Below, in pieces: positions 3,754 to 56,761 of a stretch of DNA of 64,000 nt (position 1 is its first letter; every line of letters begins with the position of its first letter). Both the position numbers and the translations under genes were made by a program. The notes under the pieces were generated by a model. It saw only the letters and a program-made list of their open reading frames with translations, was not told the origin of the DNA and did not search any database. The DNA is from Parolsenella catena (lineage in GTDB: Bacteria > Actinomycetota > Coriobacteriia > Coriobacteriales > Atopobiaceae): the NCBI RefSeq assembly GCF_003966955.1, contig NZ_AP019367.1, forward strand, positions 310,001 to 374,000. Direction: 5' to 3'.

Positions 3754-4380
3754 ATGAGTGAGTTCAAGGCGCTGGCCGAGAAGGCCGAGAAGGATTTTGA
3801 CCTGGGCGAGTTTGCGCGCACCGTGCGGGCGTGCCGGAGCTATCGCCGCTTTGACGAGGGCGATTCCGTTCCCGAGGCGCTGCTCATCGAGCTCGTGGAC
3901 CTGGCGCGCGTCGTGGCCAGCGGGGCCAACCGCATGCCGCTGCGCTATCGCATCGTGAGCTCGGCCGGCGAGCGCGAGGCGGTGTTCTCGCAGCTCAAGT
4001 GGGCCGGAGCCCTGCCTGAGTGGGACGGCCCCGAGACCGGTGAGCGCCCCACGGGCTACATCGTGGTGTGCGATGCCGGCCATGGTGCCACGACGCCGGT
4101 GGACGAGGGCATCGCCGCCCAGACGATCCTGCTGGCGGCGACGCAGGCCGGCTATGGCGGCTGCATGCTGCACGCGTTCAACAAGGCCGGCGTCTCCGGG
4201 GCACTGGGCCTGGAGGATGCCAGCGTGTCTCCGCTCATGGTCATTGCGCTCGGGCGTCCGGCCGAGGAGGTTCGCCTCGAGCCGCTCGACGCCTCGCCGA
4301 ACGGCTCCACGAACTACTGGCGAGACGAGGCGAGCGTGCATCACGTGCCGAAGCGCTCGCTGGCAGACGTCCTCGTGTAG
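3754..4380 (+). CDS. Nitroreductase-family FMN oxidoreductase
   Basis: Protein of 208 aa with the nitroreductase fold, using FMN and NAD(P)H. The N-terminal CRSYRRFDEG is the usual FMN phosphate-binding arginine stretch. TILLAATQAGYGGCMLHAFN and the C-terminal TNYWRDEASVHHVPKR match one anaerobe subgroup of the family. GGAGGAG lies eight bases before the ATG. A GGGAC palindrome (3697-3727) sits between this and the HAD gene. The physiological substrate is unknown; a redox role next to a flavodiiron protein is plausible but inferred. Confidence 0.85.
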   Translation: MSEFKALAEKAEKDFDLGEFARTVRACRSYRRFDEGDSVPEALLIELVDLARVVASGANRMPLRYRIVSSAGEREAVFSQLKWAGALPEWDGPETGERPTGYIVVCDAGHGATTPVDEGIAAQTILLAATQAGYGGCMLHAFNKAGVSGALGLEDASVSPLMVIALGRPAEEVRLEPLDASPNGSTNYWRDEASVHHVPKRSLADVLV

Positions 4381-4495: not shown

Positions 4496-6238
4496 CTAGC
4501 CCAGCGACTCCAGACCGAGCAGGGCCGCGCCGATGGCGCCGCAGAGCTGGGAGTCCTCGTGCGTGGTGACCGGAGCGCCGAGCACGTCCTCGAGCGCGCG
4601 CACGACGCCCACGTTCTGCGCCACGCCGCCGGTCATGAGGTAGGGCGGCTCGGCCTTCACGCGCTTGGCGAGCGAGGCGGTCTTGCCGGCGACGCTCATG
4701 TCGAGGCCGTGCACGATATCGGCGACGGGCGTGTCGTCGGCGACGAGCGACACGACCTCGCTCTCGGCGAACACGGTGCACATGCTCGAGATCTTCACGT
4801 CGTGCTTCCACTCGAGGCCCACGCGGCAGAACTCGTCAAGCGAAAGCTCCATGGCCCGCGCCGTGGCCTCGAGGAAGCGCCCCGTGCCGGCCGCGCACTT
4901 GTCGTTCATCACGAAGTTGGTGACGCCGCCCGCCTCGTCCAGGTGGATGACCTTGGAGTCCTGGCCGCCGATGTCGATGATGGTGCGCGCGCCGGGCGCG
5001 AGGAAGTGCGCGCCGCGGGCATGGCACGTGATCTCTGTGATGGTCGAGTCCATCCCGTCGATGGCGCCTCGCCCGTAGCCCGTGGCGACGCGCAGGGTGA
5101 GATCGGCGTCCGTGAGGCCCGCCTTGCCGAGGACCTCCTCAATGGCGCGCCGGGCGCCCGCGGAGGCCTTCGCGCCCGTGGGGACGATGACGCTCGCCAC
5201 GATTGCGCCGTCGCCGTCCACGATGACGGCGTCGGTCGAGGTGGATCCCGAGTCCACGCCCAGCACGTAGACGGGGCCGTCCGCGTGCGCGTGGGCGTCG
5301 CCGCCCGTCTCGGCCATGCCGCGCAGCGTCTCGTCGAACGCCTTGAGGCGCGTGCTGAGCTGGCCCGCGCTCTGGCGCGTGCCGTCCGTCTCGATCTTGA
5401 GCATGGGAACCTCGCTCGTCCGTGAGGCCTCGAGGTACTCGAAGCCGTAGTAGTCGCAGAACTTCATGGTGTGGTAGATGACGCCGCGCTGCCCCGGTGC
5501 GTCGATGAGTGCGCCGCGTGCTGCCACGTCGTCCATGCGCATGCAGGGCGTCTGGTTGAGCAGGGCGTCGGCGTACCAGTCGAGGAAGCGGTCGAGGCCG
5601 CTGGCCTCGTTCTCGTCCCCGCAGGCGTGACAGTCGGGGCGCGGGGCCCGCGCAAGCGTGGACGGCGGGCTCGCCACCTGGCGAAAGCCCGTGCACGTGC
5701 CGTTCTCCACGTGCAGGGACAGCTCGTCTCGGCACGTGTCTACGAGCGACAGGGGAGCGTGGGCGCCCAAGAGGGTCACGCGCTCGTCGGTGCGCGGCAC
5801 GGGAGGGTCAAAGCTCGCCAGCGCCGCATCGAGGCTGAACTCGCGCCCGCTCCACGCGCCGAACGCCTCGGCGAGACGCATGAGCTCGCCGCGGAACCTT
5901 GCGACCTCGCGCGGCCCGCGAAGGTGCGGCAGGTCGAGCATCCATAAGAAGTCGACGCTGCCCTCGCTGCGAACGATGTCGTAGACGCGGCGCATGACGT
6001 CGCAGCAGCTCGTGAGCACGAGGGCGTGCACGCTCGGATCCAGGGCGTGGGCGAGCAGCGACTTGCCGTAGCCACAGAGGTTGGGGTGCGCGAGCTCGTC
6101 GGCGCGGTCAAATGACTCGGCCTCGTGTGTGCAGGGCCAACAACCCGCGCCAAAGCCGGCGAGCAGCTCGGCGGGAACGTATTTGCACGGGTAGTGGACG
6201 GTGAGGCCCCTCTCGGGCCTCGTCTCGTTCTGGGTCAT
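4496..6238 (-). CDS. 2-hydroxyacyl-CoA dehydratase-like domain fused to an ATP-dependent activase
   Basis: A 580-aa two-domain protein. Residues about 10-305 resemble the D-component (HgdB/FldBC) family, with cysteine-rich YPCKYVPAELL, HPNLCGYGKS and TSCCDVMRR motifs and FCDYYGFEYLEAS. Residues about 323-575 are a BadF/BadG/HgdC activase of the ASKHA fold: phosphate motif DSGSTSTDA, DIGGQDSK, and the two cysteines (C448 in DKCAAGTGRF, and SSMCTVF) that ligate the dimer-bridging 4Fe-4S cluster. The family couples ATP hydrolysis to injection of a low-potential electron into a partner. Its ATG immediately follows the TAG of the upstream dehydratase gene, so translation is probably coupled. The fusion of reductase and acceptor-type domain is unusual. 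Substrate unknown; the double-cubane-cluster reductases are an alternative to a classical dehydratase. Confidence 0.85.
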   Translation of the reverse strand: MTQNETRPERGLTVHYPCKYVPAELLAGFGAGCWPCTHEAESFDRADELAHPNLCGYGKSLLAHALDPSVHALVLTSCCDVMRRVYDIVRSEGSVDFLWMLDLPHLRGPREVARFRGELMRLAEAFGAWSGREFSLDAALASFDPPVPRTDERVTLLGAHAPLSLVDTCRDELSLHVENGTCTGFRQVASPPSTLARAPRPDCHACGDENEASGLDRFLDWYADALLNQTPCMRMDDVAARGALIDAPGQRGVIYHTMKFCDYYGFEYLEASRTSEVPMLKIETDGTRQSAGQLSTRLKAFDETLRGMAETGGDAHAHADGPVYVLGVDSGSTSTDAVIVDGDGAIVASVIVPTGAKASAGARRAIEEVLGKAGLTDADLTLRVATGYGRGAIDGMDSTITEITCHARGAHFLAPGARTIIDIGGQDSKVIHLDEAGGVTNFVMNDKCAAGTGRFLEATARAMELSLDEFCRVGLEWKHDVKISSMCTVFAESEVVSLVADDTPVADIVHGLDMSVAGKTASLAKRVKAEPPYLMTGGVAQNVGVVRALEDVLGAPVTTHEDSQLCGAIGAALLGLESLG

Positions 6239-7600
6239 CTAGCGCATCTCCCCTCGGCGTGCCTCGAGCATCTCGAGGAAGGCGCCCATGCGCGTGGACG
6301 ACTGCCCCTCGGTGTTGTTCGAACGCTGCACGCAATCTCCGTCGAGCACGAGCGTGGGGATGCCGGCCGCCTCGAGCTCGCGCTTCGCGAGCTGCGAGAC
6401 GCCCATGGTCTCCTTGCAGCCCCAGTGGCAGAAGCACACGGCGCCGTCTGCCCCCGCGACCTCGGCGATGCGGCGCACGCGCTCGACGCGGCGTTCGCCG
6501 GGGCCGTTGAACACGTTCTTGATGAGGCGCTCGGCCATAGCCTCCCACGGCTCGTCGGCCGTATGCGCCCAAGCCGGCACGCTCTCGTCGCGGCGCCACA
6601 CGCCGTCCTCGAGCCGCCACCCGTCGAGGCTCACCTGGTCGAAGCACATGTCGCTCACGGCGATCTGGGCGCGCTGGTTGCAGTCGACGAGCTGCTGCAG
6701 CGATGCCGAGAAGAACGGGGCGGTGTGCATCCAGACGAGCGACAGGCCCCGGTACTCCTCGGCGCCCGGAAGGTCTTTGAGCTGCTGGCGCGCCATGCCG
6801 AGCGTGTCTGGCGTGCCGAGCGCGATGTGGGCGTCGAGCGCCTGCTGCATCTCGAGGCCCATGTCGTTGTGCATGAAGCGGCGGCGCCTGAGCGGCAGGC
6901 TGCGGACGAGTGCCTCGAGCGTCTCCTGCGAGCGCGCCACGTGCTCGCTCAGGACGCGCTCGTCGAGCGTGCGGCCGTAGGTCTGCTCGAGCCCGCGCGC
7001 GAGCTCGCGCAGCTGGTCGGCCACGTAGGAGCAGGCGTCCTCGCTGTACTTGTAGGGGACGTCGATGTAGGCGTGGGGGCTGCCGAGCTTGTCGGCGAGC
7101 CACTTGAACGTGATGTTGTTGGCGTCGCATGCCACCGAGCAGTTCGCGATGAGGCGGGGCGGCTCGAGTGAGCCCGCCATCGCGTAGCCGATGAGGGCCT
7201 TGTGAAACGAGCAGTACGTCTCGGGCACGCCACCCTGCTCGGCGGCGCGGACGAAGCCCTCCTCGGCCCAGGCGCCGGTCGTGAACTCCGCGAGCGCCTC
7301 GGCGATGAGCGGACGCAGCCCAAGCGCGAGAAACAGTTCGTTGGGCATGAACATGCTGGTCAGCACCGCGCCTTGCGGGTGGTCGAGCGCCCCGGTGACG
7401 CTCTCTAGCGCGATGCGCGCCCCCATGCGCCCGCTGGGCAGCTGCCGGGCCTCCGGGAGGTGGCGCGTCTGGAAGCGCTTCGCGGCGAAGCCGGCGTGCA
7501 GCAGCCTGGCGGCGCGCCTGGGATGCTCGTCGACCATTCCCGTGACCGCCTTGCCAAAGCGGTCCACGACCCACGTTCCCATACTGGGCTTGTCTGCCAT
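6239..7600 (-). CDS. 2-hydroxyacyl-CoA dehydratase (D-component) family protein
   Basis: A 453-aa cytoplasmic iron-sulfur protein of the HgdB/FldC/double-cubane family. Candidate cluster cysteines lie in TYCSFHKALIG, LIANCSVACDANN, DMCFDQ and CFCHWGCKETMG. Members either dehydrate 2-hydroxyacyl-CoA or reduce other substrates after one-electron activation. No CoA-transferase, acyl-CoA dehydrogenase or EtfAB gene is nearby, which argues against a complete amino-acid fermentation cluster at this locus. AAGGAGG precedes the ATG at 7600. The stop abuts the start of the activase fusion, its obvious partner. Confidence 0.85.
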   Translation of the reverse strand: MADKPSMGTWVVDRFGKAVTGMVDEHPRRAARLLHAGFAAKRFQTRHLPEARQLPSGRMGARIALESVTGALDHPQGAVLTSMFMPNELFLALGLRPLIAEALAEFTTGAWAEEGFVRAAEQGGVPETYCSFHKALIGYAMAGSLEPPRLIANCSVACDANNITFKWLADKLGSPHAYIDVPYKYSEDACSYVADQLRELARGLEQTYGRTLDERVLSEHVARSQETLEALVRSLPLRRRRFMHNDMGLEMQQALDAHIALGTPDTLGMARQQLKDLPGAEEYRGLSLVWMHTAPFFSASLQQLVDCNQRAQIAVSDMCFDQVSLDGWRLEDGVWRRDESVPAWAHTADEPWEAMAERLIKNVFNGPGERRVERVRRIAEVAGADGAVCFCHWGCKETMGVSQLAKRELEAAGIPTLVLDGDCVQRSNNTEGQSSTRMGAFLEMLEARRGEMR

Positions 7601-7752
7601 TCCGTGCCTCCTTGCCGTCTTGCGGCTCCACATACTATCGCCCGGTCTCCCTGTGGCGGGCGGGGAGGCCGGGCAATGAGAAAGTCTCCTTTATTTAGTG
7701 GCGCGCCGGAGGTGTCTGGTGGTCTGGCGCTCCCGGGCGTGGCGCCCTGCGC

Positions 7753-51243: not shown

Positions 51244-51996
51244 GTGTCAGACGTGCTCGCCAGCACACCCGTCGCGCCCCCTCGCCTCGACCGTCGCAGC
51301 CTTCGCAGCCGTGCGCGCCTTCGCGACGCGCTTGCCGCAGAGATCCAGGCCACCGGCGACCTGTCGCGCGTCACGGTCACGGCGGTGACCGAGCGCGCCG
51401 GGCTCACGAGGAGGACGTTCTACTCGCATTTCCATGACATCCCCGACCTCGTGGCCGCCGTCGAGGCCGATGCGCTCGCCGACATCCGCAGCCTCGTCGA
51501 GCGCATCGCCGCCTCGCACCTTGACGACCTCACGGCCGCGCTCGAGCGTCTCAAGCCCGCTCCGGGCGCGGTTGAGCTGCTGTGCTACTTCCGCGACAAC
51601 GCCGCGCACCTCACGGCACTGCTCGGTGAGGGCGGAGACCCCGCGTTTGTCGAGAAGATCAAGGACGTGTGCGCGGACGCCGTGTGCGGTCGCGCCCTCG
51701 ACGGCATCGACGCACGCGCCGTGGGGCCGTTCTTTGACTACTACCTGGCGTTCGCGGTCTCCGCCGAGGCGGGCGTGCTCACGCGCTGGCTCACGGGTGG
51801 CATGCGCGAGAGCGTGCAGACCATGGCGCTCATGATGACGGCGCTCACCTTCGTGCGCCCCGGCGACCTGTACGGCAAGACCATCGACCTCAACGTGCCG
51901 GCCTACGCGCTGGCGCTCATGCGTTCGACCGAATCGCAGACTGTCGCGGCGGGCGGGGATACCCGCCGTGCGGAAGGAGAGCCCAACCATGACTAA
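51244..51996 (+). CDS. TetR-family transcriptional regulator
   Basis: Regulator of 250 aa. The N-terminal helix-turn-helix LRDALAAEIQATGDLSRVTV followed by VTERAGLTRRTFYSHFHDIPDLV is canonical; the C-terminal ligand domain includes a hydrophobic region FFDYYLAFAVSAEAGVLTRWL. GTG 51244 follows AAGGAGG by six bases. It overlaps the start of the 1590-residue activase-dehydratase gene by 8 bp, so both are made from one transcript. The ligand is unknown; acyl-CoA or fatty acid would suit the neighbour. Confidence 0.9.
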   Translation: MSDVLASTPVAPPRLDRRSLRSRARLRDALAAEIQATGDLSRVTVTAVTERAGLTRRTFYSHFHDIPDLVAAVEADALADIRSLVERIAASHLDDLTAALERLKPAPGAVELLCYFRDNAAHLTALLGEGGDPAFVEKIKDVCADAVCGRALDGIDARAVGPFFDYYLAFAVSAEAGVLTRWLTGGMRESVQTMALMMTALTFVRPGDLYGKTIDLNVPAYALALMRSTESQTVAAGGDTRRAEGEPNHD

Positions 51997-54900
51997 CAAC
52001 CCGGCAGCCTCCAACGCCGCCCAGGCCCAGGCGGCCCGCGGCATCGAGCTCGTCGCCAACGGCGCGGAGCTGCGCCCGGCGAGGACCACCGACTTCTCGC
52101 GCGCGCAGCTGCGCCTGGGCATCGACGTGGGCTCCACGACCGTCAAGCTCGCCGTCATCGACGAGCGCGATCGCATCGTCTACGCCAACTACCAGCGCCA
52201 CCACACCGACATCCGCGCCACGGCCAAAGAGCTGTTCGAGGGCGCCCGCGCCGTGCTAGGCGACGCCTCCATGCGCGTCTCCATCACCGGCTCGGGCGGC
52301 CTGCTGCTTGCCAAGTGGCTCGACCTCGAGTTCGTCCAGGAGGTCATCGCCAGCAAGCGCGCCGTCGAGACCCTCATCCCCCAGACCGACGTCGCCATCG
52401 AGCTCGGCGGCGAGGACGCCAAGATCATCTACTTCGACAACGGCATCGAGCAGCGCATGAACGGCACGTGCGCGGGCGGCACGGGCGCGTTCATCGACCA
52501 GATGGCGAGCCTTCTGCACACCGACGCCGGCGGCCTGAACGAGCTCGCCAAGGAGGCCACGCACATCTACCCCATCGCGAGCCGCTGCGGCGTGTTCGCC
52601 AAGACCGACGTCCAGCCGCTGCTCAACGAGGGTGCCGCACCCGCCGACGTCGCCGCCTCGATCTTCCAGGCCGTCGCGAACCAGACCGTCTCGGGCCTGG
52701 CGTGCGGCCACCCCATCCGCGGCTACGTCGCCTTCCTCGGCGGCCCGCTGCAGTACCTCTCCGAGCTGCGCCACCGCTTCTACGAGACGCTCAGCCTGGA
52801 CGAGGAGCACCGCATCGTTCCTACGAACGCCCACCTGTTCGTGGCCACCGGCGCCGCGCTTGCCGGCGAGACCGACAAGCACGTGACGTTTGCCGAGGTC
52901 ATCGACGCGCTCGAGAACCTCGGTGACATGCAGGGCAGCGAGGTCCAGCGCCTGGACGCGCTGTTCGCCACGCCCGAGGAGCTCGCCGAGTTCCACGAGC
53001 GCCACGACGCGCAGGTCGTTCCCAAGGGAGACCTCGCGAGCTACCGCGGCCGCGTGTTCATCGGCATCGACGCCGGCTCCACGACGATGAAGGCCGCCGT
53101 CGTGGGCGAGGGCGGCGAGCTGCTCTACACCTGGTACGGCAACAACCGCGGCGACGTGCTGGGCACGGCGCGCGTCATCATGGACGACATCTACGACAGG
53201 CTGCCCGAGGGCTGCACGATCGGCCACGTCACCACGACCGGCTACGGCGAGGCCCTGCTCATCGAGGCCCTGCGCGCCGACTCCGGGGAGATCGAGACGG
53301 TGGCGCACCTGCGCGGCGCCAAGGCGTTCGTGCCCGACGTTGAGTTCATCCTCGACATCGGCGGCCAGGACATGAAGTGCCTGCGCGTGCGCAACGGCGT
53401 CATCGAGCACATCATGCTCAACGAGGCGTGCTCGTCTGGCTGCGGCAGCTTCATCGAGAGCTTCGCAGACTCCATGGGCCTCACGGTCCAGGAGTTCGCC
53501 AAGGCCGCCATGGGTGCCGACAAGCCCGTTGACCTGGGCAGCCGCTGCACCGTGTTCATGAACTCGCGCGTGAAGCAGGCCCAGAAGGAGGGCGCCACGG
53601 TGGGAGACATCGCGGCGGGGCTCTCCTACTCGGTCATCAAGAACGCGCTGTTCAAGGTCATCAAGATGCGTGACCCCGAGGAGATCGGTCGCTACGTCGT
53701 GGTCCAGGGCGGCACGTTCATGAGCGACGCCACGCTCCGCGCGTTCGAGAAGCTCACGGGCCGCGAGGCCATCCGCCCCGACATCGCCGGCTGCATGGGC
53801 TGCTACGGCGCCGCGCTTCTCGCCCGCGACCGCGCCGGCGCGGACGGCGTCTCCACGCTGCTCACGCGCGACCAGATCGACAACCTGCAGGTGAAGCAGA
53901 CGAAGGCCCACTGCGGCCGCTGCTCCAACAACTGCCTGCTCACGATCAACAACTTTGGCAACGGCCACAAGTTCATCACGGGCAACCGCTGCGAGAAGGG
54001 CGCCGGCCACAAGCGCAACAAGGTGGAGGCCCCCAACCTGTTCGCGTTCAAGAACAAGCTGCTGTTCGACCGTCCCGTGCTTGACCCCAAGACGGCCCCG
54101 CACGGCACCGTGGGCATCCCCCGCGCGCTCAACATGTACGAGAACTACCCGTTCTGGCACGCGTTCTTCACGGAGCTCGGCTTCTCGGTGGTGCTCTCGG
54201 ACCAGTCCACGAAGAGGACCTACGAGGCCGGCATCGAGTCCATGCCGTCCGAGTCCGTGTGCTACCCGGCCAAGCTCTCCCACGGCCACATCATGAACCT
54301 GCTCGAGAAGGACCCCGACTTCATCTGGATGCCCTGCATCCGCTGGGAGCGCCAGGAGGACGAGACGGCGGGCAACCACTACAACTGCCCCATCGTCATG
54401 AGCTACCCGCAGGCGCTGGGCCTCAACGTCGACGAGCTCGCCGCGCCCCAGGTGGAGTTCCTGGACGCCTTCGTGCCCTATGACGACAAGAGGGAGCTCA
54501 AGCGCCGCCTGTACGAGCTCATCTCCGTGCGGCGCGAGGCCGACGCCAAGGCGGGTCGCGGCCGCTTCCGCGGAGAGCACATCACCCGCACGGAGGTCGA
54601 CCGCGCCGTGAACGCGGCCTGGGAGGCCGACCTCGAGTTCAAGCAGACCATGCAGCGCAAGGGTGACGAGACGCTCGCCTGGGTGGAGGCCCACGACGCC
54701 CACGGCATCGTGCTGGCGGGCCGTCCCTACCACAACGACCCAGAGATCAACCACGCCATCCCCGAGCTCGTGAACAGCTTTGGCTTTGCCGTGCTCACCG
54801 AGGACTCCGTGGCCCACAAGATGCGTCCCGAGCGCCCCATCCGCGTCGTCGACCAGTGGATGTACCACTCGCGCCTCTACCGCGCGGCGCGCTTCGTGGC

Positions 54901-56761
54901 CTCCCGCAACGACCTCGACCTCATCCAGCTCAACAGCTTTGGCTGCGGCCTGGACGCCCTCACCACCGATCAGGTCCAGGAGATCCTCGAGGCGTCCGGC
55001 AAGATCTACACCGTGCTGAAGATCGACGAGGTCTCCAACCTGGGCGCCGCGCGCATCCGCGTGCGCTCGCTCATGGCGGCCCTGTCCGAGCAGCGCGACG
55101 AGCTCGCCCGCGAGGTGGCCGCCGGCAAGCTCGCGCCCGCGGGTCCCGTGGACGTGCGCCGCGCCGACGGCTCGCTCGAGCGCGCGAAGGCGCCCGAGCA
55201 GGGCAGGCTGCCCGTGTGGCGCGAGGCCAAGAGCGCCGCGTTCAAGAAGGTGCGCTACACCAAGGAGATGCAGGAGAGCGGCTACACGCTGCTGTGCCCG
55301 CAGATGTCGCCCATCCACTTCGAGCTCATCGAGCAGCTGCTCGTGAACGCCGGCTTCAACGCGGTGCTTCTGCCCTCCGTCGACCACGGCGCGGTGGAGG
55401 CCGGCCTCAAGTACGTCAACAACGACATCTGCTACCCGTCAATCCTCGTCACGGGCCAGATCATGGAGGCCATCGAGAGCGGCAAGTACGACCTCTCCCG
55501 CACGGCCGTCATCATCTCCCAGACGGGCGGCGGCTGCCGAGCCACGAACTACATCGCCCTCATCCGCAAGGCGCTCAAGGACTCGGGTCATCCGGAGGTC
55601 CCCGTGGTGTCGCTCACCGCGGCGAGCGGCCTTGACGAGGACAACCCCGGCTTCAACGTCTTCAAGCCCGACCTCATCGTCCATGCCGTCTACGCGCTGC
55701 TCTACGGCGACCTCATCATGCAGGCGCTCTACCGCGTGCGCCCCTACGAGGCCCAGGCCGGTGCGGCAAACGCCCTGTACGACCAGCTCATGGAGCGCGC
55801 CAAGGTCGAGCTCGTGAGCTGCGGCCAGCGCGGCTTCCTGAAACTGTGCCAGGACACGGTGGACGCGTTCGAGACGCTGCCCGTGGTGGCAGACCGCTCC
55901 AAGCCGCGCGTGGGCGTCGTGGGAGAGATTCTCGTCAAGTTCCACCCCACGGCCAACAACGAGGTCGTCAAGGTCATCGAGCAGGAGGGCTGCGAGGCCG
56001 TTGTCCCGGGTCTGGTGGACTTCTTCCTCTTTGGCATGACGAGCCCCATGAACATGCGCGGCGAGCTTGGCACCAAGTTCCGCAAGCGCCTCACGCACCA
56101 GACGGGCATCAAGGTCATCGAGGCCATGCGCGAGCCCATCAACCGCATGCTCGAGAAGTCCACGCGCTTTGAGCCCTACCCCGACATCTACGAGCTCGCC
56201 GCCAAGGCCAAGCAGATCCTGTCTTTGTGCAACACGATGGGCGAGGGCTGGCTGCTCACGGCCGAGATGTGCGACCTCATTGAGACGGGCACGCCCAACA
56301 TCGTGTGCTGCTCGCCGTTCGCGTGCCTGCCCAACCACGTGGTGGGCAAGTCGGTCATCAAGCGCCTGCGCGAGATGCACCCCGAGAGCAACATCGTGGC
56401 CGTTGACTACGACCCGGGCGCCTCGGAGGTCAACCAGCTCAACCGCATCAAGCTCATGATCTCCGTGGCCAAGGAGAACTTCCGCCGTGCCCGCGCGGCC
56501 GCAGCCGAGATGGGAGGGACCGCCGACAACGTGGCAGCCTTCCGCCTCGAGAACCCCGAAGACCCCACGACCCACGTCGTGGCACCGCTTGCGGGTGCGG
56601 ACCTTGCCGATGACGCGTGCGAGGGCGGCGTCTGCGCCATGCCCGAGAGCGCGCTGCCCCTCTCGCGCGCCCAGCTCGACCGCATCGAGGCCGCGAAGGC
56701 CGCCGCTGCCGAGCGCGCCGCCGCGGCCGAGTCCGAGGCGAGCGGGGACGACGCGGAGTAG
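51989..56761 (+). CDS. Giant double activase/2-hydroxyacyl-CoA dehydratase-like protein
   Basis: Protein of 1590 aa. Two HgdC-like activase domains come first: GIDVGSTT at 44-51 with cluster cysteines C161 (NGTCAGGTG) and C200 (SRCGVF), then GIDAGSTT at 359-366 with C481 (NEACSSGCG) and C520 (SRCTVF). A DUF2229 module with CGRCSNNC (C642, C645, C649) follows, then large dehydratase-like modules with PSESVCYPAKLSHGH, GRPYHNDPEINH, the NNDICYPSILVTGQ block and a late CCSPFACLPNH near residue 1440. An acidic/Ala tail ends it. Such proteins are known as acyl-CoA dehydratase activase-related; the reaction is not established. All expected cluster cysteines are intact. ATG 51989 with GAAGGAGAG upstream. 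Confidence 0.9.
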   Translation: MTNNPAASNAAQAQAARGIELVANGAELRPARTTDFSRAQLRLGIDVGSTTVKLAVIDERDRIVYANYQRHHTDIRATAKELFEGARAVLGDASMRVSITGSGGLLLAKWLDLEFVQEVIASKRAVETLIPQTDVAIELGGEDAKIIYFDNGIEQRMNGTCAGGTGAFIDQMASLLHTDAGGLNELAKEATHIYPIASRCGVFAKTDVQPLLNEGAAPADVAASIFQAVANQTVSGLACGHPIRGYVAFLGGPLQYLSELRHRFYETLSLDEEHRIVPTNAHLFVATGAALAGETDKHVTFAEVIDALENLGDMQGSEVQRLDALFATPEELAEFHERHDAQVVPKGDLASYRGRVFIGIDAGSTTMKAAVVGEGGELLYTWYGNNRGDVLGTARVIMDDIYDRLPEGCTIGHVTTTGYGEALLIEALRADSGEIETVAHLRGAKAFVPDVEFILDIGGQDMKCLRVRNGVIEHIMLNEACSSGCGSFIESFADSMGLTVQEFAKAAMGADKPVDLGSRCTVFMNSRVKQAQKEGATVGDIAAGLSYSVIKNALFKVIKMRDPEEIGRYVVVQGGTFMSDATLRAFEKLTGREAIRPDIAGCMGCYGAALLARDRAGADGVSTLLTRDQIDNLQVKQTKAHCGRCSNNCLLTINNFGNGHKFITGNRCEKGAGHKRNKVEAPNLFAFKNKLLFDRPVLDPKTAPHGTVGIPRALNMYENYPFWHAFFTELGFSVVLSDQSTKRTYEAGIESMPSESVCYPAKLSHGHIMNLLEKDPDFIWMPCIRWERQEDETAGNHYNCPIVMSYPQALGLNVDELAAPQVEFLDAFVPYDDKRELKRRLYELISVRREADAKAGRGRFRGEHITRTEVDRAVNAAWEADLEFKQTMQRKGDETLAWVEAHDAHGIVLAGRPYHNDPEINHAIPELVNSFGFAVLTEDSVAHKMRPERPIRVVDQWMYHSRLYRAARFVASRNDLDLIQLNSFGCGLDALTTDQVQEILEASGKIYTVLKIDEVSNLGAARIRVRSLMAALSEQRDELAREVAAGKLAPAGPVDVRRADGSLERAKAPEQGRLPVWREAKSAAFKKVRYTKEMQESGYTLLCPQMSPIHFELIEQLLVNAGFNAVLLPSVDHGAVEAGLKYVNNDICYPSILVTGQIMEAIESGKYDLSRTAVIISQTGGGCRATNYIALIRKALKDSGHPEVPVVSLTAASGLDEDNPGFNVFKPDLIVHAVYALLYGDLIMQALYRVRPYEAQAGAANALYDQLMERAKVELVSCGQRGFLKLCQDTVDAFETLPVVADRSKPRVGVVGEILVKFHPTANNEVVKVIEQEGCEAVVPGLVDFFLFGMTSPMNMRGELGTKFRKRLTHQTGIKVIEAMREPINRMLEKSTRFEPYPDIYELAAKAKQILSLCNTMGEGWLLTAEMCDLIETGTPNIVCCSPFACLPNHVVGKSVIKRLREMHPESNIVAVDYDPGASEVNQLNRIKLMISVAKENFRRARAAAAEMGGTADNVAAFRLENPEDPTTHVVAPLAGADLADDACEGGVCAMPESALPLSRAQLDRIEAAKAAAAERAAAAESEASGDDAE

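Follow-up and report, generated by a model that had tools for sequence, protein, structure and literature searches.

Two abutting genes of Parolsenella catena, here called A and B, probably encode an uncharacterised ATP-dependent low-potential reductase in which an activase is fused to the double-cubane subunit and the cluster layout is like that of class I benzoyl-CoA reductase (probability roughly 0.68). The genes are located in a 64,000-nucleotide stretch of DNA, hereafter the window, of a 1.8 Mb host genome that comprises one contig. Overall, the pair fits best as a variant member of the BCR I/HAD superfamily whose mode of action would resemble that of class I benzoyl-CoA reductase. It was not assigned to the benzoyl-CoA reductases (BCR), the DCCPs or the 2-hydroxyacyl-CoA dehydratases (HAD), because defining features of each were examined and were not found in it. 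Most likely, the substrate is an organic molecule or a thioester that accepts electrons poorly and differs from both benzoyl-CoA and the 2-hydroxyacyl-CoAs.

Gene organization and conservation

Gene A begins with the ATG at 7600-7598 and ends with the TAG at 6241-6239 of the minus strand. The ATG of gene B (6238-6236) abuts this stop codon with zero intervening bases, and gene B ends at 4496. The main features are:

6239..7600, minus strand: gene A, 453 aa, an HGD-D protein of catalytic (alpha) type with a predicted single open-site [4Fe-4S] cluster
4496..6238, minus strand: gene B, 580 aa, a predicted double-cubane-type HGD-D domain fused to an activase (Pfam/NCBIfam, AF2)
7607..7613, minus strand: Shine-Dalgarno sequence AAGGAGG before gene A, six bases 5' of the ATG
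6248..6255, minus strand: GAGGGGAG, a possible Shine-Dalgarno sequence of gene B within the 3' end of A

Pfam assigns A to HGD-D (E 7.9e-55) and detects in B both HGD-D, as two stretches (E 1.1e-31), and BcrAD_BadFG at residues 326-575 (E 1.6e-61). These results confirm an earlier note on this DNA, which had described a D-component-type gene whose stop directly abuts the next ATG and a second gene that fuses a dehydratase-like domain to an activase. Promoter, terminator and Rfam scans gave no matches.

A protein search with B confirmed at least 541 relatives, from which 80 loci were retained for neighbourhood comparison. An A homologue lies upstream of B on the same strand in all 80, and the adjacency is therefore not due to chance but reflects a conserved two-gene module. 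The 80 loci belong to Coriobacteriia, Lachnospiraceae, Oscillospiraceae-type genera, Peptococcaceae and Desulfosporosinus; Olsenella and other Atopobiaceae are the nearest relatives among the matches listed from the public genome set. The A/B junction overlaps in 51 of the 78 measurable loci, most commonly by 4 bases, which suggests coupled translation of A and B. Among 149 Coriobacteriia genomes, 12 contain a true B (E < 1e-100), and A adjoins B in every one of the 12. An extra, more distant A paralogue (E 1e-127 to 1e-140) is present at another site in five genomes, each of which also carries the A-B pair.

N-terminal domain of B

The ligand alignment combined B with DCCPs, E. coli YjiM, BzdN, HAD subunits and A; the BzdN, BzdO, MbdO and HadB stretches were taken from printed PDB alignments. 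In the 1.4 Å BzdNO structure, the [8Fe-9S] cluster is held by BzdN Cys36/73/100/263/293/327 (PMC11971306). Cysteines occupy all six of these positions in 43/43 B and 17/17 DCCP sequences:

5321..6238, minus strand: B residues 1-306 (about), HGD-D domain without the middle helical domain (alignment, fold matches)
6185..6187, minus strand: Cys18, position of BzdN Cys36; Cys in 43/43 B and 17/17 DCCP
6074..6076, minus strand: Cys55, position of BzdN Cys73; Cys in 43/43 B
6002..6004, minus strand: Cys79, position of BzdN Cys100; Cys in 43/43 B, with the extra Cys78 just before
5693..5695, minus strand: Cys182, position of BzdN Cys263; Cys in 43/43 B
5543..5545, minus strand: Cys232, position of BzdN Cys293 with a one-column shift relative to BzdN; Cys in 43/43 B and 17/17 DCCP
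5456..5458, minus strand: Cys261, position of BzdN Cys327; Cys in 43/43 B

The AF2 monomer model of B has a pLDDT of 88.1, and its residues 6-308 match BzdN with Z 23.5 and DCCP with Z 22.9-23.4. An [8Fe-9S] double cubane in B is thus strongly predicted from the aligned ligands, although ligand conservation does not reveal a bridging sulfide.

The columns that correspond to BzdN 156-227, the middle helical domain, contain a median of 17 residues in B versus 72-73 in A, DCCP, HAD alpha, HAD beta and BzdN; as judged from the alignment, the loss of this domain is specific to the B clade. Since the middle domain helps to form the substrate channel in BzdNO (PMC11971306), its loss would fit a subunit that only relays electrons. 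Cys78 (6005-6007), beside the ligand Cys79, is invariant in all B sequences and absent from DCCP, BzdN and HAD. This extra cysteine and the lost middle domain could change the predicted cluster of B.

C-terminal domain of B

The C-terminal part of B has an ASKHA-type ATPase fold and two candidate cluster cysteines, as is characteristic of an archerase:

4508..5272, minus strand: B residues 323-577 (about), archerase (ATPase) domain (TIGR00241, phmmer, fold match)
4895..4897, minus strand: Cys448, candidate activase [4Fe-4S] ligand in NDKCAAGTGRF; invariant, same motif in 4EHT and 1HUX
4778..4780, minus strand: Cys487, candidate activase [4Fe-4S] ligand in SSMCTVFAESE; Cys in 80/81 with a gap in the other, motif shared with 4EHT and 1HUX

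B scores 250.5 bits against TIGR00241 (BadF/BadG/BcrA/BcrD; cutoff 125.4), and a phmmer comparison of its activase with 4EHT gives E 1.1e-64. Residues 322-580 of the AF2 model match MbdQ with Z 37.9 and HgdC with Z 37.4. The earlier view that the pair contains the complete machinery for ATP-driven electron delivery is strongly supported at the level of activase motifs and fold, and the [8Fe-9S] and [4Fe-4S] positions are predicted.

Catalytic subunit A

The AF2 monomer model of A is confident (pLDDT 95.5). Its best fold match is HadB, with Z 38.3 over 375 residues at 2.7 Å (VIA, AF2 model), compared with Z 37.3 for BzdO and Z 28.7 for DCCP. In BzdO, Cys95/128/380 bind a [4Fe-4S]-OH2 cluster, and Glu65 and His131 are located at its water (PMC11971306). 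The equivalent positions in A are:

7298..7300, minus strand: Glu101, equivalent by alignment to BzdO Glu65 (acid/base at the cluster water)
7211..7213, minus strand: Cys130, ligand position of BzdO Cys95; invariant
7127..7129, minus strand: Cys158, ligand position of BzdO Cys128; invariant, with a one-column ambiguity relative to the BzdO CC pair
6416..6418, minus strand: Cys395 in an FxHWGC motif, ligand position of BzdO Cys380; invariant

The position of Glu101 is invariant in 58/58 A sequences, 6/6 HAD alpha subunits, BzdO and MbdO. All 58 A sequences have cysteines at ligand positions 2, 3 and 6 only, with no conserved cysteine at 1, 4 and 5, a pattern that matches both BzdO and HadB. The six cysteines of B thus predict one double cubane, and the three of A one open-site cubane. 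The comparison of cysteines with solved structures that had been proposed as a check on the pair therefore locates the six BzdN/DCCP positions in B and three in A.

Around this shared site, A has residues of its own. His133, Asn161, Phe390, His392, Trp393 and Thr398 are present in 58/58 A and absent from every BCR and HAD compared; all of them are retained in one lone A paralogue that was examined. BzdO His131, Gln274 and Tyr298 are replaced in A by Asn, mostly Thr, and Met/Leu, respectively; MbdO deviates at these positions too, and the comparison thus tests the Bzd type. At the position of BzdO Tyr97, a contact of the thioester oxygen in that protein, A has Tyr or Phe. The Asn-Arg-Ser-Cys-Lys of HAD alpha becomes His-Trp-Gly-Cys-Lys, and the Tyr of its GSVY motif becomes Met/Leu. 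The named BzdO contacts are thus partly absent from A, and CoA contacts diverge between HAD and BCR as well. The A-exclusive residues and the change of Tyr298 to Met/Leu suggest a different substrate, and second-sphere residues unlike those of both BCR and HAD indicate that the chemistry may also differ.

Phylogeny and family-model scores

In a tree of 55 sequences, which did not include BzdO, A groups with HAD alpha (99/97) yet forms its own clade (100/99) beside it. B falls on the side of DCCP, BzdN and HAD beta, where it forms a clade (100/100) with a long stem, separate from the DCCP clade; the branch of BzdN is long, so that its exact neighbour in the tree is unsure. Neither A nor B lies inside a characterised dehydratase clade. 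As far as the tree is concerned, the condition under which the earlier note would have given up its reading, both proteins squarely within such a clade and with conserved CoA-binding residues, thus did not occur. Both proteins also remain below the cutoffs of the curated BCR and DCCP models: A scores 23.3 bits against bzdO (cutoff 448.6), B scores 181.8 bits against bzdQ (cutoff 380.2), and the DCCP model NF040772 (cutoff 350 bits) gives 49.4 for A and 58.2 for B.

Proposed mechanism

In the proposed path, a ferredoxin- or flavodoxin-type donor would reduce a [4Fe-4S] cluster of the activase that bridges two B chains, with Cys448 and Cys487 from each chain as putative ligands. A cluster shared in this way, with two cysteines per chain, requires a B dimer. 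ATP binding and hydrolysis would move the activase and push very low-potential electrons into the [8Fe-9S] cluster of B. The predicted double cubane, on the six N-domain cysteines, would store these electrons and pass them to the [4Fe-4S] cluster of A, which is presumably bound by three cysteines with water on the fourth iron beside Glu101. Reduction of the A-bound substrate would then take place at this cluster, probably by a radical mechanism with electron or hydrogen-atom transfer. The activase has to form a dimer, and each copy is tethered by about 15 residues to its own double-cubane domain; an (AB)2 assembly is therefore likely, in which one activase dimer may serve two heads in turn.

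Relationship to known systems

Class I benzoyl-CoA reductase (BzdNOPQ, PDB 8S02; MbdONPQ, PDB 9GAI) has, as predicted for A, a catalytic subunit with a three-Cys [4Fe-4S]-OH2 cluster and a Glu and, as predicted for B, a six-Cys [8Fe-9S] partner, solved for BzdN. Its electrons are driven by archerase ATPases, as proposed for B. It comprises four polypeptides, in contrast to the two of the A-B pair, in which the activase is fused to the double-cubane subunit and is of a single type, with no P/Q pair. B also lacks the middle domain that BzdN has, A lacks BzdO His131, Gln274 and Tyr298, and the gene context is not one of aromatic-CoA metabolism. DCCP with DCCP-R (PDB 6ENO, 7YZM; relatives E. coli YjiM/YjiL) shares the six cysteine ligands of B and an archerase partner. 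It is, however, a homodimer with two double cubanes, a separate activase gene and a middle domain, whereas A has one three-Cys site. As only B has the six double-cubane ligands, the closest working analogue is the heterodimeric class I benzoyl-CoA reductase rather than DCCP. The earlier suggestion of a double-cubane-type reductase is thus supported for B, with six ligands in 43/43 sequences, but not for A, whose predicted site resembles those of BzdO and HadB.

The 2-hydroxyacyl-CoA dehydratases (HadBC with activator, PDB 3O3M, 4EHT; HgdABC) have the fold in common with the pair, A being of alpha type, and the archerase domain of B is 44-45% identical to their activators by structural alignment. 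They differ in the beta subunit, which offers three ligands and a single cubane where B offers six ligands, in the residues of the active-site motifs, and in having CoA-transferase or dehydrogenase partners. Activase-activase-DUF2229 proteins also contain archerase domains within a larger fusion; B differs from these in having one C-terminal activase after a six-Cys HGD-D domain.

Three other functions were weighed. It is unlikely that the pair is a small-molecule reductase of the DCCP kind, with the double cubane of B as the site of reduction and A in a structural or regulatory role. Acetylene, hydrazine and azide are in vitro substrates of DCCP (PMC11971306), B and DCCP have all six ligands in common, and the profile of the B N-domain scores best against DCCP (6ENO, E 2.1e-24). 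However, each DCCP subunit carries a double cubane, while A has only 3/6 ligands and an invariant Glu of catalytic type; the separate clades and the 58.2 bits of B against a cutoff of 350 also argue against this assignment.

An unusual 2-hydroxyacyl-CoA dehydratase, redox-neutral, with a recycled electron and the double cubane as an electron store, is quite unlikely despite the grouping of A with HAD alpha, HadB as its nearest structure and the retained Glu and three-Cys site. HAD beta has cysteines at positions 2, 3 and 6 only, having lost ligands 1, 4 and 5, whereas B keeps all six; the signature residues of HAD alpha are replaced in A; the genome has no acyl-CoA dehydrogenase match, and the pair has no HAD-type neighbours. 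A one-to-one fusion with the activase would moreover fit a stoichiometric supply of electrons better than occasional priming. A genuine reductase of benzoyl-CoA or a related aromatic CoA ester is highly improbable. The non-conserved BzdO residues, curated BCR model scores far under the cutoffs and the absence of recurrent aromatic-degradation genes beside the pair in the loci compared outweigh the shared fold, catalytic Glu and predicted cluster layout.

According to the 2025 paper on BzdNO (PMC11971306), DCCP, a protein of unknown physiological role, had been the sole known carrier of [8Fe-9S] double cubanes until class I benzoyl-CoA reductase joined it. If the predicted clusters hold, the uncharacterised reductase proposed here would add a further double-cubane type that is compact, occurs widely in gut bacteria and combines electron activation with the double cubane on one chain. 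It would provide an accessible system in which to study the use of such very low-potential electrons in the gut and, as a two-gene reductase, would be a candidate for biocatalysis. More tentatively, the pair may represent an undescribed enzyme class, an ATP-driven reductase that is CoA-independent or acts on a new thioester, in which one B serves interchangeable A subunits and by which gut anaerobes reach reductions at potentials lower than is usual in biology. Support for the main reading comes from extra A paralogues with no adjacent B, which are restricted to genomes containing the pair, and from tandem A-A-B arrays; both would follow if a single B works with more than one catalytic subunit. 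A search of the openly accessible literature, with subscription papers outside its scope, found no description of a fusion of B's type.

Genome neighbourhood and related loci

The pair is surrounded by genes for a flavodiiron-like protein, an MFS transporter, a haloacid-dehalogenase-type hydrolase, a convergent nitroreductase and a PreP-like peptidase, none of which defines a pathway. No CoA-transferase, ETF or dehydrogenase gene occurs within about 4 kb on either side, in agreement with the earlier observation that the pair lacks them. Elsewhere the genome contains two type III CoA-transferases, about 165 kb from the pair, and one ETF pair adjoining a GlcD-like dehydrogenase; no other HGD-D protein was found in it. 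Reductive amino-acid fermentation was rejected as the setting on account of these distant CoA-transferases, the ETF partner and the lack of an acyl-CoA dehydrogenase match.

Beyond the pair, neighbours are conserved among close kin only, and outside Coriobacteriia the immediate neighbours vary almost every time. DegV upstream in a few Lachnospiraceae and, in Coriobacteriia, the convergent nitroreductase were considered as substrate clues but look like cases of local synteny. The nitroreductase-family gene, at 3754-4380 (plus strand) of the window, has homologues near the pair in 14 Coriobacteriia loci, and a TM1586-type nitroreductase gene lies near the lone A paralogue in four of five cases. 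The pair-side and lone-A-side genes belong to different subfamilies with no significant similarity, and the nitroreductase link is therefore not counted as evidence.

The lone second A paralogues are located far from the pair (L124/L130, L131, L132, L133, L134), and the A-A-B arrays occur in Olsenella relatives (L008, L010, L011, L013, L121). A second archerase system is encoded at 51989-56761 (plus strand) of the window, a 1590-aa activase-activase-DUF2229 protein without a PF06050 match. Locus L127 (genome G113; similar locus in G095) encodes a reverse fusion, an activase followed by a six-Cys HGD-D domain in which the middle domain is retained, adjoining an alpha-like partner. This order suggests more than one fusion event between activase and double-cubane domains. 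In locus L113 (genome G132), a further dehydratase-like pair sits on long branches; its alpha-like member carries His in place of the expected third cluster cysteine.
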